A DNA stretch of 64,000 nt from assembly GCA_026003335.1 (NCBI GenBank), contig BPHB01000001.1, forward strand, positions 508,591 to 572,590, written 5' to 3'. This document shows positions 45,951-54,132 of this stretch, piece by piece (within the stretch, counting starts at the first letter, position 1; each line of letters begins with the position of its first letter). Source of the DNA: Chitinophagales bacterium (GTDB lineage Bacteria; Bacteroidota; Bacteroidia; Chitinophagales; CAIOSU01). A program made the position numbers and the translations under genes. The notes beneath the pieces were generated by a model. That model made no database searches. It was not told the DNA's origin and saw nothing but the letters and a program-made list of their open reading frames with translations.

Positions 45951-45980
45951 TCATATCATATCATATCAAATCAAATCAAA
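45951..45980 (+). repeat. Pentanucleotide tandem repeat (TCATA)3(TCAAA)3
   Basis: Six five-base units in a row, three TCATA then three TCAAA, differing at one position. It lies 58-87 bases before the start of the collagen-like surface protein gene and just downstream of the SDR gene. Such short repeats can change copy number by slippage; here it would alter promoter-region spacing. Confidence 0.85.
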
Positions 45981-46037
45981 ATAGGTAGGTCATATGCCAT
46001 ATTTTTAGAATTAGTCCAATTTGATTAATATTAGAAC

Positions 46038-49000
46038 ATGAAAAACGTTCTCTTATCCTGCTGTGCACTTTTGCTGGTAACGGCAGCCTTATCCCAGGTT
46101 CCGCAAGGGATAAAGTATCAGGCCATTGCCAGGGATGAATCGGGTAATTTATTGCGTAACCAGCAAATTACCCTGAAAATTACCATTATTGATAGCGCCC
46201 AGAGTGGAATACCTGTGTATTCGGAAATGCATAAATCCGGCACCAATGACTTTGGCCTTTTCAGCGTCTCCATCGGCCAGGGTATCAACCCCACAGGTAA
46301 TTTTAGCTCCATACCCTGGGCTACAGGGAAAAAATGGATGCAGGTGGAAATAGATCCAGCCGGAGGTACAAACTTCTATTTGCTGGGCATCACCGAACTG
46401 CTGGCTGTGCCTTATGCCCTGTATGCCGGTAATGCGAACAATTCCGCAAGTGCTATTTCCTCCGTGCAATTTGACTCCCTTACCCGTACCCTGACCATTC
46501 TTGAAGCAGGTATCCCTTTTTACACCAGCATTCCCATTGATGCGGATTATCTTACCGACAATTTTCTGAATGATCTCGCGGATGTAAATGCTACTCCCGC
46601 ACCCAATCAAATTCTCAAATGGAATGGCTCCGCCTGGGTAGCTGCCGATGACGAAACCAATGATCAAAATCTCTCACTGGTGGGCGGCACCCTCCTTTCT
46701 ATTTCCAGTGGCAACACAATTGACCTTTCCTCTTTTCTGGATAATACCGACAATCAGACGCTTTCCTATGATTCCGCTACCCATATTTTGAGTCTGCAAA
46801 ACGGGGGTTCGGTGAACCTTTCAGGATTAAAAAATGATGCGGATGCAGATCCTCAGAATGAAATACAGGATTTGGTATTATCGGGCAATCAATTATCCCT
46901 TACCCAAAGCACCGTGACCATCACCTTGCCCACCATTGCCGGAAACGGCATCGTGAATACGATTGACAACGGAAACGGCACGTTTACATTTATCTATTCC
47001 GATGGCTCCTCCTTCACCACCTCCAACCTTACCGGTCCTCCCGGACCGCAAGGACCTCAGGGACCTGCCGGTCTGCAAGGGCCTGCCGGCAATGACGGGG
47101 TCGGCATTACCAGCACCGTAGACAACGGCAACGGGACCTTTACACTTTATTTCTCCGATGGCTCCTCCTTCACCACCTCCAACCTCACCGGTCCTCCCGG
47201 ACCGCAAGGACCTCAGGGACCTGCCGGTCCGCAGGGGCCTCCCGGCAATGACGGGGTCGGCATTACCAGCACCGTAGACAACGGCAACGGTACTTTTACA
47301 CTTTATTTCTCCGATGGCTCCTCCTTCACCACCTCCAACCTCACCGGTCCTCCCGGACCGCAAGGACCTCAGGGACCTGCAGGGCCGCAAGGACCTCAGG
47401 GAGCTCAAGGGCCTGCTGGTCCACAGGGGCCTCAAGGACCAGGTGGACTCAAAAGCCTCATAACCTCTACCAATGAACCGGCCGGTGCCAACTGCGCCAA
47501 CGGTGGCAGAAGAATCCAGATCGGCCTGGATGCCAATAACAACAACGTCCTGGATGGTTCGGAAATCTCCCAGACCTTTTTCGTCTGCAATGGCGCCACA
47601 GGACCTCAAGGACCTGCAGGGCCTGCCGGCAATGACGGGGTCGGCATTACCAGCACCGTAGACAACGGCAACGGTACTTTTACACTTTATTTCTCCGATG
47701 GCTCCTCCTTCACCACCTCCAACCTCACCGGTCCTCCCGGACCGCAAGGACCTCAGGGACCTCAGGGACCTGCCGGTCCGCAAGGGCCTCCCGGCAATGA
47801 CGGAGTTGGCATTACCAGCACCGTAGACAACGGCAACGGTACTTTTACACTTTATTTCTCCGATGGCTCCTCCTTCACCACCTCCAACCTCACCGGTCCT
47901 CCCGGACCGCAAGGACCTCAGGGACCTCAGGGACCTGCCGGTCCGCAGGGGCCTCCCGGCAATGACGGGGTCGGCATTACCAGCACCGTAGACAACGGCA
48001 ACGGTACTTTTACACTTTATTTCTCCGATGGCTCCTCCTTCACCACCTCCAACCTCACCGGTCCTCCCGGACCGCAAGGACCTCAGGGACCTGCAGGGCC
48101 GCAAGGACCTCAGGGAGCTCAAGGGCCTGCTGGTCCACAGGGGCCTCAAGGACCAGGTGGACTCAAAAGCCTCATAACCTCTACCAATGAACCGGCCGGT
48201 GCCAACTGCGCCAACGGTGGCAGAAGAATCCAGATCGGCCTGGATGCCAATAACAACAACGTCCTGGATGGTTCGGAAATCTCCCAGACCTTTTTCGTCT
48301 GCAATGGCGCCACAGGACCTCAAGGACCTGCAGGGCCTGCCGGCAATGACGGGGTCGGCATTACCAGCACCGTAGACAACGGCAACGGTACTTTTACACT
48401 TTATTTCTCCGATGGCTCCTCCTTCACCACCTCCAACCTCACCGGTCCTCCCGGACCGCAAGGACCTCAGGGACCTGCAGGGCCGCAAGGACCTCAGGGA
48501 GCTCAAGGGCCTGCTGGTCCACAGGGGCCTCAAGGACCAGGTGGACTCAAAAGCCTCATAACCTCTACCAATGAACCGGCCGGTGCCAACTGCGCCAACG
48601 GTGGCAGAAGAATCCAGATCGGCCTGGATGCCAATAACAACAACGTCCTGGATGGTTCGGAAATCTCCCAGACCTTTTTCGTCTGCAATGGCGCCACAGG
48701 ACCTCAGGGACCTGCAGGGCCGCAAGGGCCTGCCGGTCCGCAAGGTCCACAGGGGCCTCAAGGACCAGGTGGACTCAAAAGCCTCATAACCTCTACCAAT
48801 GAACCGGCCGGTGCCAACTGCGCCAACGGTGGCAGAAGAATCCAGATCGGCCTGGATGCCAATAACAACAACGTCCTGGATGGTTCGGAAATCTCCCAGA
48901 CCTTTTTCGTCTGCAATGGCGCCACAGGACCTCAGGGACCTGCAGGGCCACAAGGGCCTGCCGGCAATGACGGGGTCGGCATTACCAGCACCGTAGACAA

Positions 49001-51158
49001 CGGCAACGGTACCTTTACACTTTATTTCTCCGATGGCTCCTCCTTTACCACCTCCAACCTCACCGGTCCTCCCGGACCGCAAGGACCTCAGGGAGCTCAA
49101 GGGCCTGCCGGACCTGCTGGACCGCAAGGACCAAGTGGACTCAAAAGCCTCATAACCTCTACCAATGAACCGGCCGGTGCCAACTGCGCCAACGGTGGCA
49201 GAAGAATCCAGATCGGCCTGGATGCTAATAACAACAACGTCCTGGATGGTTCGGAAATCTCCCAGACCTTTTTCGTCTGCAATGGTGCAACAGGACCTCA
49301 GGGACCTGCAGGGCCGCAAGGGCCTGCCGGTCCGCAAGGTCCACAGGGGCCTCAAGGACCAGGTGGACTCAAAAGCCTCATGACCTCTACCAATGAACCG
49401 GCCGGTGCCAACTGCGCCAACGGTGGCAGAAGAATCCAGATCGGCCTGGATGCTAATAACAACAACGTCCTGGATGGTTCGGAAATCTCCCAGACCTTTT
49501 TCGTCTGCAATGGCGCCACAGGACCTCAGGGACCTGCAGGGCCACAAGGGCCTGCCGGCAATGACGGGGTCGGCATTACCAGCACCGTAGACAACGGCAA
49601 CGGTACCTTTACACTTTATTTCTCCGATGGCTCCTCCTTCACCACCTCCAACCTCACCGGTCCTCCCGGACCGCAAGGACCTCAGGGAGCTCAAGGGCCT
49701 GCTGGTCCACAGGGGCCTCAAGGACCAGGTGGACTCAAAAGCCTCATGACCTCTACCAATGAACCGGCCGGTGCCAACTGCGCCAACGGTGGCAGAAGAA
49801 TCCAGATCGGCCTGGATGCTAATAACAACAACGTCCTGGATGGTTCGGAAATCTCCCAGACCTTTTTCGTCTGCAATGGTGCCACAGGACCTCAGGGACC
49901 TGCTGGTCCGCAGGGGCCTCAAGGACCAGGTGGACTCAAAAGCCTCATGACCTCTACCAATGAACCGGCCGGTGCCAACTGCGCCAACGGTGGCAGAAGG
50001 ATCCAGATCGGTCTGGATGCTAATAACAACAACGTCCTGGATGGTTCGGAAATCTCCCAGACCTTTTTCGTCTGCAATGGTCTGGACGGTGCGGGAGCAT
50101 CTGATGACCAGACTTTATCCTTTGATCCCGCAACCAATATATTATCTATTTCTGATGGCAACAGCGTGGACCTGAGCACGCTGGAATATTGGCGTGCTGC
50201 GGGGGCGAATATTTACAACACCAACACCGGAAACGTGGGAATCGGCATTTTCAATCCGATTACCAGACTGCACGTGGGCGGGATAGCCTCAGCCGCTTTT
50301 AGTCCTGTTGCTTCATCCCAACCTCCTCCGGCTGCAGGAAGTATCATCTATGCAGTGAACAACGCAAGCACTTCCAACTCTTCTTATGCAATATATGGTG
50401 AAAGTCGTTCAACGGATTTTGGATCGGCAGGAGTAGTAGGCGTTAGCACGGTAGATAGTCCGCATGAAATCGGAGTGCTGGGAGACTATTCCCTATGGGG
50501 GGCTGCTCTGCACGGTGTAGGTTGGAATGGAGACTGGATGGTGCCCAACCGGGATTATGGTATTTGGGGATCTGTAAATTTTGGAACGGGGGTTGGTGTA
50601 TATGGAAAAAACAATAATACCAATAACGGAGCTTATGCCGTATATGCTGAAGGGAACTTTGCCAATACAGGCACTAAATCTGCATCTGTTCCCACGTCAT
50701 TGGGCAATCAGTTGGTTTACGCACTTGAAAGCCCTGAAATATGGTTTGAAGATTTCGGCATCGGACAATTGAAAAACGGTGAAGCTTACGTGCAGCTGGA
50801 TAGGTTATTTTTGGAAATCGTGGTTATAGATGCGCAACATCCCATGCACGTATTTGTACAGGAGCACGGAGAAACAAACGGGTTATATGTTATACCCGGG
50901 ACTACCGGATTTAAGGTGAAAGAAAAAAACAACGGCACATCCAATTGCACTTTTTCTTACCGGATAGTAGCCAAGCGGGTAAACTATCAAGACCACCGGT
51001 TTGGTTTGGATCCAACATTCGGCTTTGAGGATACGCGCGGGCAATTTAAATATGTCCCCCCCTTCCCTATAGACCCGCAGATCATGCAACAGCGTATCGA
51101 GGAAATGCACAAAGCAAAAGAGGAAGAATATCGCAGACAAAAAGAGGCAAAACACTAA
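46038..51158 (+). CDS. Giant collagen-like / DUF7151-like repeat surface protein
   Basis: 1706 residues. Signal peptide to about residue 20 (ALSQV). Residues 20-140 match the Bacteroidota N-terminal domain beginning [17 protein letters not shown] and ending [12 protein letters not shown]. Residues about 330-1350 are alternating modules: Gly-x-y collagen-like stretches, nine [17 protein letters not shown] modules (first a variant) and eight cysteine-pair modules ([14 protein letters not shown]...[12 protein letters not shown]...FFVCNG) like DUF7151. At about 1400 there is a VGIG..NP..RLHVGG stalk motif. The last 150 residues hold [10 protein letters not shown]...GFKVKE...FSYRIVAKR, a C-terminal domain known from other surface fibres. 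No T9SS domain is seen. Probably an extended trimeric surface fibre; adhesion is inferred. Confidence 0.92.
47035..50090 (+). repeat. Modular repeat array coding collagen-like and DUF7151-like units
   Basis: Eight copies of the cysteine-pair module carry the NEPAG start at about 47473, 48187, 48571, 48799, 49165, 49393, 49759 and 49960. Spacings 228, 366, 228, 366 show a higher-order unit of 594 bases over the last third. Copies are nearly identical at the DNA level. Copies 1-4 read GATGCC where 5-8 read GATGCT, and copies 1-5 read ATAACC where 6-8 read ATGACC, so neighbours are most alike, as expected from stepwise duplication or gene conversion. Copy number may be wrong in an assembly. Confidence 0.95.
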
Positions 51159-51487
51159 TCTGTCTGTTACCTATTCTGAGTGCCACAAACTGCGAGCGCT
51201 ATGGCAGGTGTAAAGCAGGGTTCTTTTCTTGCCGCGGAAATTTGCATTCTGCCCGATATGCCGTGCAGTAATTTAGAATTTCGCTTATAGTTGTTTAAAC
51301 AGATGGAGGAGTTTTACTCATGTACGGACATACACAGGATAAAACAAAGTACATAATAGGTTGACAAGCCCCGCATAAAGTACCCGCATAAAGTAAGAGA
51401 CGACAGTACCGGCATCCATTTCAAAAGAGTATTTCCGTTCTGCACAAGTCAGCCCAAAGAAATTACCACTTTCCGGCTTTAGGCAAT
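51159..51487. other. 329-base intergenic region with a 13-base tandem duplication
   Basis: No gene is seen between the collagen-like gene and the Crp/Fnr gene. CCCGCATAAAGTA occurs twice in tandem, exactly, at 51370-51382 and 51383-51395, about 95 bases before the regulator start. It may be a binding site pair for the regulator or a chance duplication. No clear promoter or terminator is found. Confidence 0.6.
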
Positions 51488-52893: not shown

Positions 52894-54132
52894 ATGCTTC
52901 GCTGTTTTTTTTTCATAGCGGCATTTCTCTTCTTTAGCACAAGTATGACACATGCCCAGCCCGGACGCTACCAGCGGGCAATTTTTGACAGTGTGCGTAC
53001 CACCCATGATATTCAATATGGCTCAGCGGATTTCTATGATCCCAATCTCAATCATGATTTAGATCCGCTGTATCTGGATCTCTACGAACCCGTAGGAGAT
53101 AGCGCAACAAAGCGTCCGCTGGTAATTACTCTTTTTGGAGGAGCCTTCCTGGGCGGTCACAAACAGTGGGATGATATGGTAGCGTGGTGTGATAGTCTGG
53201 CCCTGTACGGTTACGTCTGTGCCTCCATCCAATACAGGTTGCTGTTTAATCCCCTCAATCAGGAGAGTATCATCCGAGCTTCTTATCGTGCGGTTCAGGA
53301 TACGCGTGCTGCTATTCGCTTTCTGAAAGAAATGGCTGCATCCTACCGTATTGATACTACCCGGATATTTTTAATCGGAAACAGCGCAGGTGCAATAACC
53401 AGCCTGCTTACTGCTTTTATCACATCGGAAAGTGAGCGGCCCTCCTCCACGTATGGATCCGGCAGCGGTTCTGATGCCGATGACCTGGGTTGTCTGGATT
53501 GTTCGGGAAACAGCTATACACATTCCGTAAACCTGGCGGGAATTATCTCACTTTGGGGAGGCATGTGGAGTCTGGATTGGATTGATCGGCATGAAACAAC
53601 ACCTGTTTTGCTGATACACGGCACCGCTGACGGCACAGTGCCGTTTGACAGCGGCTATGCATTTGGTACTACCCTCTCGCCTTTCGTGTATGGTTCCGTA
53701 GCCATTCACCGCAAGCTGGAGGAGTTTGCTATACCACACGCTTTTCAGCCTTTTGATTCTCTGGGTCATAATTTTTACATGGACAACAGGGGCTTTTCCT
53801 TCCCCAATATTTATTGGGAGCCCGTTTTTACTCTCGGACATCAGTTTCTATACCACATCATGAACAGCATGCTGCCTGCTACATCAAAACAGGTCTATCC
53901 CGCACATTTTCACATCCGACCTAATCCTGTAAGCAATATGCTGATTATTTCACCCCCGGAGCACATTGACGCCTATTTCATTGATCTATTTTCACTTCAG
54001 GGGAATAGAATCACGACCCGACTTTGCATGAAGGAGGAAACTATAGACCTTGGCATGCTGCCTAAAGGGATGTACACCCTTGGCATCCAAACGCACCGCT
54101 TTCATCAGTTTATCAAACTCGTGGTTCACTGA
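52894..54132 (+). CDS. Secreted alpha/beta-hydrolase (esterase-like) with T9SS type-A sorting domain
   Basis: 412 residues. Signal peptide to about 22 (THAQP). The esterase core has LDLYEP, LFGGAFLGGHK (HGG-like oxyanion region), GNSAGAIT with the nucleophile Ser, LLIHGTADGTVPFDS with the acidic residue, and FDSLGHNFY with the catalytic His. The final 75 residues (FHIRPNPVSNMLII...LPKGMYTLGI) form a type-A sorting domain, so it is predicted T9SS cargo. Closest in style to BD-FAE/carboxylesterase-type hydrolases; substrate not assigned. Confidence 0.9.
   Translation: MLRCFFFIAAFLFFSTSMTHAQPGRYQRAIFDSVRTTHDIQYGSADFYDPNLNHDLDPLYLDLYEPVGDSATKRPLVITLFGGAFLGGHKQWDDMVAWCDSLALYGYVCASIQYRLLFNPLNQESIIRASYRAVQDTRAAIRFLKEMAASYRIDTTRIFLIGNSAGAITSLLTAFITSESERPSSTYGSGSGSDADDLGCLDCSGNSYTHSVNLAGIISLWGGMWSLDWIDRHETTPVLLIHGTADGTVPFDSGYAFGTTLSPFVYGSVAIHRKLEEFAIPHAFQPFDSLGHNFYMDNRGFSFPNIYWEPVFTLGHQFLYHIMNSMLPATSKQVYPAHFHIRPNPVSNMLIISPPEHIDAYFIDLFSLQGNRITTRLCMKEETIDLGMLPKGMYTLGIQTHRFHQFIKLVVH

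Follow-up and report, generated by a model that had tools for sequence, protein, structure and literature searches.

An open reading frame (ORF) of 1706 amino acids, at 46038–51158 on the forward strand of a 64,000-nucleotide stretch from a Chitinophagales bacterium (assembly GCA_026003335.1, contig BPHB01000001.1, positions 508,591 to 572,590; referred to as the window), probably encodes a secreted, presumably homotrimeric, surface adhesion fibre with a modular rod of variable length. The ORF is single and free of internal stops or frameshifts. Its central part (46947–50078) is an array of nine A modules (VDNGNGTF type) and eight B modules (DUF7151, NEPAG type) arranged as AAABAAABABBABBABB; Gly-x-y linkers of 15–34 residues connect them. 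The original prediction had placed a mosaic of collagen-like and DUF7151-like modules at 47035–50090 and had read it as a modular surface fibre. Pfam searches identified both kinds of sequence in the protein (PF01391, 159.6 bits; PF23657, 495.8 bits), and a fibre fits the signal peptide and the fibre-type ends; the feature is real, and its bounds had been drawn too narrowly.

Collagen-like sequence over the curated PF01391 cut-off was found in 11 stretches of uninterrupted Gly-x-y triplets. Glycine was in register in all of the complete triplets counted (118/118), and linkers of the same kind differed in length by whole triplets; this constant phase points to selection for a putative triple helix. 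Of the two module types for which a profile search had been proposed, B was identified as DUF7151, and A (A1, 46947–47033; A2, 47097–47189; A3, 47253–47345; A4, 47637–47729; A5, 47802–47894; A6, 47967–48059; A7, 48351–48443; A8, 48972–49064; A9, 49566–49658) matched nothing in Pfam or among phage sequences. Since A modules precede Gly-x-y stretches also in other Bacteroidota (L140 and L141), with a weaker A-like match ahead of a Gly-x-y array in L143, the A module, standing directly before Gly-x-y, likely nucleates the triple helix and/or keeps its register.

The eight B modules (B1, 47448–47591; B2, 48162–48305; B3, 48546–48689; B4, 48774–48917; B5, 49140–49283; B6, 49368–49511; B7, 49734–49877; B8, 49935–50078) correspond to eight PF23657 stretches (cut-off 27.2 bits), and single copies scored 72.8–74.1 bits each. 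DUF7151 was restricted to the fibre gene in this genome, absent from the 60 relatives searched, and present, by Pfam search, in 6 of 395 genomes of the phylum, its own included. Because none of these relatives carries it and the best module identity seen was 64%, recent gain from a close donor was unsupported. A scan of named genomes with a three-row alignment yielded 56 DUF7151 loci in Bacteroidota, Myxococcota and other 'Deltaproteobacteria', Pseudomonadota, Acidobacteriota, Nitrospirae, and Melainabacteria. The largest number of modules in a single ORF was 15 (L084), and many of the loci contain Gly-x-y linkers. Myxococcota/deltaproteobacterial proteins (L084, L119, and L096) contained 8–15 modules per ORF. 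A 'tail fiber protein' of Maribacter phage Molly_1 (L037, 7334–9316) begins with a lipoprotein-like signal and contains six DUF7151-type modules, three of them without the Cys pair; no B module was found in a scan of viral contigs. No function was on record for DUF7151, and none of the papers searched named it.

The conserved segment of the family, D-x-[ND]-x-[ND]-G-x-L-[DE]-x-x-E, resembles a calcium-binding loop. It was characterised in 208 distinct modules, a sample biased toward the loop because one of the two scan patterns overlapped it (a bias reduced, not removed, by multi-module ORFs and copies found with Pfam): both cysteines were kept in 206 of them, and D29, L36, and E40 were conserved in 100, 99, and 99%, respectively. 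The Cys pair and the loop (D-x-N-x-N-G-x-L-x-x-x-E) are both present in the window copies. The EF-hand loop pattern D-x-[DNS]-x-[DNS]-G-x-[LIV]-x-x-x-E, which we take to be that of PS00018, fitted all eight window copies and 171 of the 208 modules in this loop-biased sample (0.04% of shuffled modules). When the DUF7151 profile was compared with PDB sequences, the best matches were EF-hand calcium loops of known calcium-binding proteins, aligned at positions 28–43 (E 0.001–0.1). An AF2 model of B, for which two alignment rows from phage/plasmid records were left out, was confident (pLDDT, the predicted local distance difference test, 92.8) and contained strands 4–11, 21–28, and 41–48, the second and third of which enclose the loop; among viral folds, a Maribacter phage tail fibre was the only confident match. 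A true EF-hand domain was rejected, since the predicted strands 21–28 and 41–48 flank the loop in place of a helix-loop-helix. From the pattern and PDB matches together with these strands, DUF7151 is, as modelled, an EF-type loop on a scaffold other than the EF-hand.

These results suggested that the B modules may be spacers stiffened by calcium and a disulphide bond. It is quite possible, if a little short of probable, that DUF7151 is an undescribed calcium-binding module in Bacteroidota, Myxococcota, Pseudomonadota, and a Maribacter phage: a small three-stranded unit with an EF-type loop between β strands, locked by the Cys pair, and serving as a bead that stiffens or spaces collagen-like rods. 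In that case, fibre stiffness or assembly would rely on external calcium, and unequal exchange would tune the length of the array. This offers a testable function for an unnamed family, and collagen-like rods with built-in folded beads would be of interest for protein materials. On the other hand, the B modules may themselves bind a ligand, so that the shaft is polyvalent and expansion raises avidity. In favour of this are collagen-free DUF7151 tandems directly behind putative lipoprotein signals (L029, four modules; L112, six) and the Legionella collagen-like protein Lcl, whose binding rises with repeat number (PMC6460258). The window B copies, however, are near-identical in protein, with a consensus starting LKSL[I/M] in which I/M is the sole change noted, and no diversification of a binding site was seen; we regard ligand binding by B as rather unlikely, and the spacer as the better reading of these copies.

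The array appears to have grown through repeated recent duplications. The exact 594-base spacing reported earlier was confirmed for B3, B5, and B7 (48546/49140/49734; B3 opens the series) and for B4 and B6 (48774/49368). The positions for which it had been reported, 48571/49165/49759 and 48799/49393, are spaced as claimed but are not cysteines: they fall, off by one base, on NEPAG codons, and the Cys codons of the copy starting at 48546 lie at 48591 and 48684. The substitutions in a step along the array were also reproduced, with GCC in B1–B4 and GCT from B5 to B8, and ATA in B1–B5 and ATG in B6–B8 (from 49368 on). The higher-order unit of 594 bases is thus present but not the sole one, since periods of 714, 384, 228, and 201 bases were also found. 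The longest exact repeats were 555 bases at offset 714 (47208–47762 = 47922–48476), 367 at 384 and 1098, and 206 at 228, followed by 191 bases and by 185 at 594; repetition in the array is far beyond chance. Mismatches per period were 0/555 (714), 2/389 (384), 1/221 (228), and 29/843 (594, mostly within one linker block). The 594-base period is therefore among the more diverged; duplications at 714 and 384 seem to be more recent, that at 714 most of all. The most diverged copies, A1 and B8, sit at the edges of the array, as expected under turnover by unequal exchange.

A second array in the same genome allowed a comparison between genes. This paralogue (G000:C1 762.4–766.0 kb; L022 2930–6520) has eight A modules, with one amino acid change (Y/F) relative to the window. 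Within the window gene, and likewise within the paralogue, A modules differ at 0–4 of 93 bases, and between the two genes at 12–15 of 93; each array has therefore been homogenised separately after the genes parted, so that one genome holds two such arrays. Together with the exact repeats and the stepped substitutions, this homogenisation supports the proposal of recent unequal exchange. It also bears on the possibility that the assembler lengthened, collapsed, or shuffled the array and that the true number or order of modules differs. The genome is in 24 contigs, and exact repeats of 555, 367, and 206 bases exceed common short-read lengths; the array nevertheless sits inside a 2.08 Mb contig, 5.1 kb stays in frame with the triplet phase intact, divergent edge copies and stepped substitutions are not easily made by misassembly, and the paralogue has its own separately homogenised array. 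An assembly artefact is improbable on this evidence, and growth by unequal exchange remains our explanation of the array.

The window gene is the collagen-like member of a family of six fibre genes in this genome. A predicted signal peptide of 19 residues (46038–46094, by inspection) is directly followed by an N-terminal domain (N-domain) of ~130 amino acids (46095–46439 by profile and genome searches; β-rich as judged from sequence) that this gene shares with its five intact paralogues and with one decayed copy. A proximal shaft of DNTDNQ/LSLSGG-type repeats (46440–46946), also common to paralogues, leads into the array. The N-domain was found in 40 of 61 genomes (its own and 60 relatives of the same order or closer), in up to 15 copies. 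All nine fibres tested matched the N-terminal domain of the Bdellovibrio mosaic adhesive trimer (MAT) proteins (NF053851, Bdello_MAT_N; cut-off 60 bits), and the matches always began near the start of the profile: the window protein scored 29.1 bits, and eight paralogues and relatives 24–37 bits. This suggests that the N-domain may be distantly related to the MAT domain while being no member of it. The unnamed repeat mosaic is thus assigned to a fibre family that occurs widely within one Bacteroidota order and bears a distant likeness to the Bdellovibrio prey-recognition fibres.

Tips differ among the paralogues; that of L025 is an S74 chaperone domain. A 2181-residue paralogue (L022 7090–13635; G000:C1 ~766.6–773.1 kb) lies immediately downstream of the one with A modules and has another expanded shaft with many near-identical FNK.FTFDSLTNTITITDDGGSFTLSLQDLVNDA repeats. 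Paralogues L023 and L026 share a long near-identical stretch, from DNTDAQTLALSGTNLSISGGN repeats to SAKVIDWDNSSYYVDP, and have unlike ends, suggesting possible exchange between fibre genes. In the decayed gene (L024; G000:C1 ~138.3–139.0 kb, reverse strand), the N-domain and shaft are broken by a stop and a frame change. Two relatives of the same family (L079 and L080) have the N-domain, shaft, collagen, and a related tip, with no A or B.

In the window protein, the array is followed by a distal shaft with a DDQTLSF repeat, an NVGIG..P motif, and GVYG-type repeats (50079–50588), and by the C-terminal tip (50589–51155). Tip residues 1524–1655 matched PHROG 6616 (tail protein; E 1.9e-12), and tip homologues occurred in 27 of 100 genomes searched, its own included. 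A tip model built from 13 sequences had a confident core and resembled the C-termini of phage tailspikes and pyocin fibres; in Foldseek, the cyanophage Pam1 tailspike and the R2 pyocin fibre matched it with a probability of 1.00 (E 0.0018, TMq 0.35). It is highly improbable that the gene instead encodes a tail fibre of a phage or prophage that the chromosome has captured. Maribacter phage tail fibres do contain DUF7151, and several PHROG tail families match the protein, tip included; but most of these matches fall on collagen stretches, the protein has a signal peptide, the genes around it look like ordinary bacterial ones, none of them seen to be a phage structural gene, and the N-domain forms a multi-gene family throughout the order.

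In the cell-surface fibre that we propose, the N-domain would keep the protein attached to the cell, the rod would consist of short Gly-x-y triple helices, with A modules and B beads in the roles described above, and the tailspike-like C-terminal domain would bind the target. Slippage or unequal exchange between modules that are nearly identical would lengthen or shorten the array in frame, changing the length of the fibre, possibly also within populations, and leaving the reading frame and triplet phase intact. By analogy, adhesion may depend on length as in Lcl (PMC6460258), and the rod-plus-trimeriser design may follow that of Escherichia coli prophage fibres (PMC3368898). Several results weigh against parts of this proposal: the fold match of the tip (E ~0.002, TMq 0.35) extends over no more than a portion of the domain; the likeness to the MAT N-domain is below the curated cut-off; no sorting domain of the type IX secretion system (T9SS) was found by Pfam in the window protein; the calcium-type loop of DUF7151 is a motif without helix-loop-helix context; and the DUF7151 fold had no match among solved structures at E ≤ 0.001.

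The arrangement, which the original prediction could not name, was placed by comparison with other Bacteroidota, in which the same module types are combined (L092, L083, L086, L094, and L108); DUF7151 with Gly-x-y linkers is, moreover, common across several phyla. An ORF from a Flavobacteriia metagenome-assembled genome (MAG; L092) has the order Gly-x-y, B, Gly-x-y, A, Gly-x-y, B. In Flavobacteriia/Flavobacteriales MAGs (L083, L086 with two ORFs, L094, and L108), the N-domain is combined with one DUF7151 per ORF, and with collagen in four of these five ORFs (exception, L094). In contrast to the window protein, all of them have one or two B, at most one A, no expanded array, and other tips. No other ORF was seen with N-domain, A, B, and collagen together, nor with a comparable expansion of A and B. 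Because the combinations recur, the window protein is not unique; it is a large example of a mosaic fibre type that can be recognised elsewhere, notable for its size and its DUF7151 motif.

Known systems resemble the window protein in parts. With other DUF7151 proteins, which are often joined by Gly-x-y, its eight copies share the invariant Cys pair, GG, and D..E loop, but here a second module type, A, is interspersed among them, in a higher-order array that follows a MAT-like N-domain. The Bdellovibrio MAT proteins are similar in the β-rich domain of ~130 residues after the signal peptide, the multi-gene repertoire, the exchanged tips, and the S74 tip (here on L025), a domain that ends 13 of 21 MAT proteins (PMC10769870); they differ in phylum and in the low N-domain scores, and collagen is unmentioned in the MAT paper (PMC10769870). 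Legionella Lcl and streptococcal Scl likewise have a Gly-x-y rod and a C-terminal adhesive domain, with variation of repeat number in Lcl, whereas the rod here is interrupted by A and B modules. Their models, NF046116 and NF038329, scored 129.4 (cut-off 500) and 150.2 (325), respectively, and a third equivalog 113.7 (400), from stretches including Gly-x-y parts; the names Lcl and Scl were rejected since all scores were below the curated cut-offs, and the Lcl_C domain was not found in the window protein. The collagen-like E. coli prophage fibres EPclA and EPclB combine Gly-x-y rods with trimerisation domains (PMC3368898); they are similar in joining rods to non-collagen domains, some of which trimerise, and in changing length in multiples of three, but have phage-encoded PfN, PCoil, and PfC domains and no DUF7151 or A.

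Two further candidates in the gene were rejected. An antisense ORF of 1009 amino acids (46893–49922, reverse strand) was taken as a by-product of repeat codons, since similar antisense ORFs run across the paralogues, and promoter-like sites, one per A module, were copies of one chance match. An Rfam search near the fibre gene gave no match. The neighbouring ORFs include, by inspection, a short-chain dehydrogenase/reductase-like and a Crp/Fnr-like one, and a T9SS-sorted esterase (52894–54132). The sorting domain of this esterase and the relatives of the fibre both point to a host in the Bacteroidota. A pentanucleotide repeat at 45952–45981 (3 × CATAT, 2 × CAAAT, and CAAAA) lies 57–86 bases before the start codon; it may represent a promoter element prone to slippage, and none was seen ahead of the paralogues. 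Downstream of the fibre gene, a perfect 13-base tandem repeat (CCCGCATAAAGTA × 2) lies in the intergenic region at 51370–51395.

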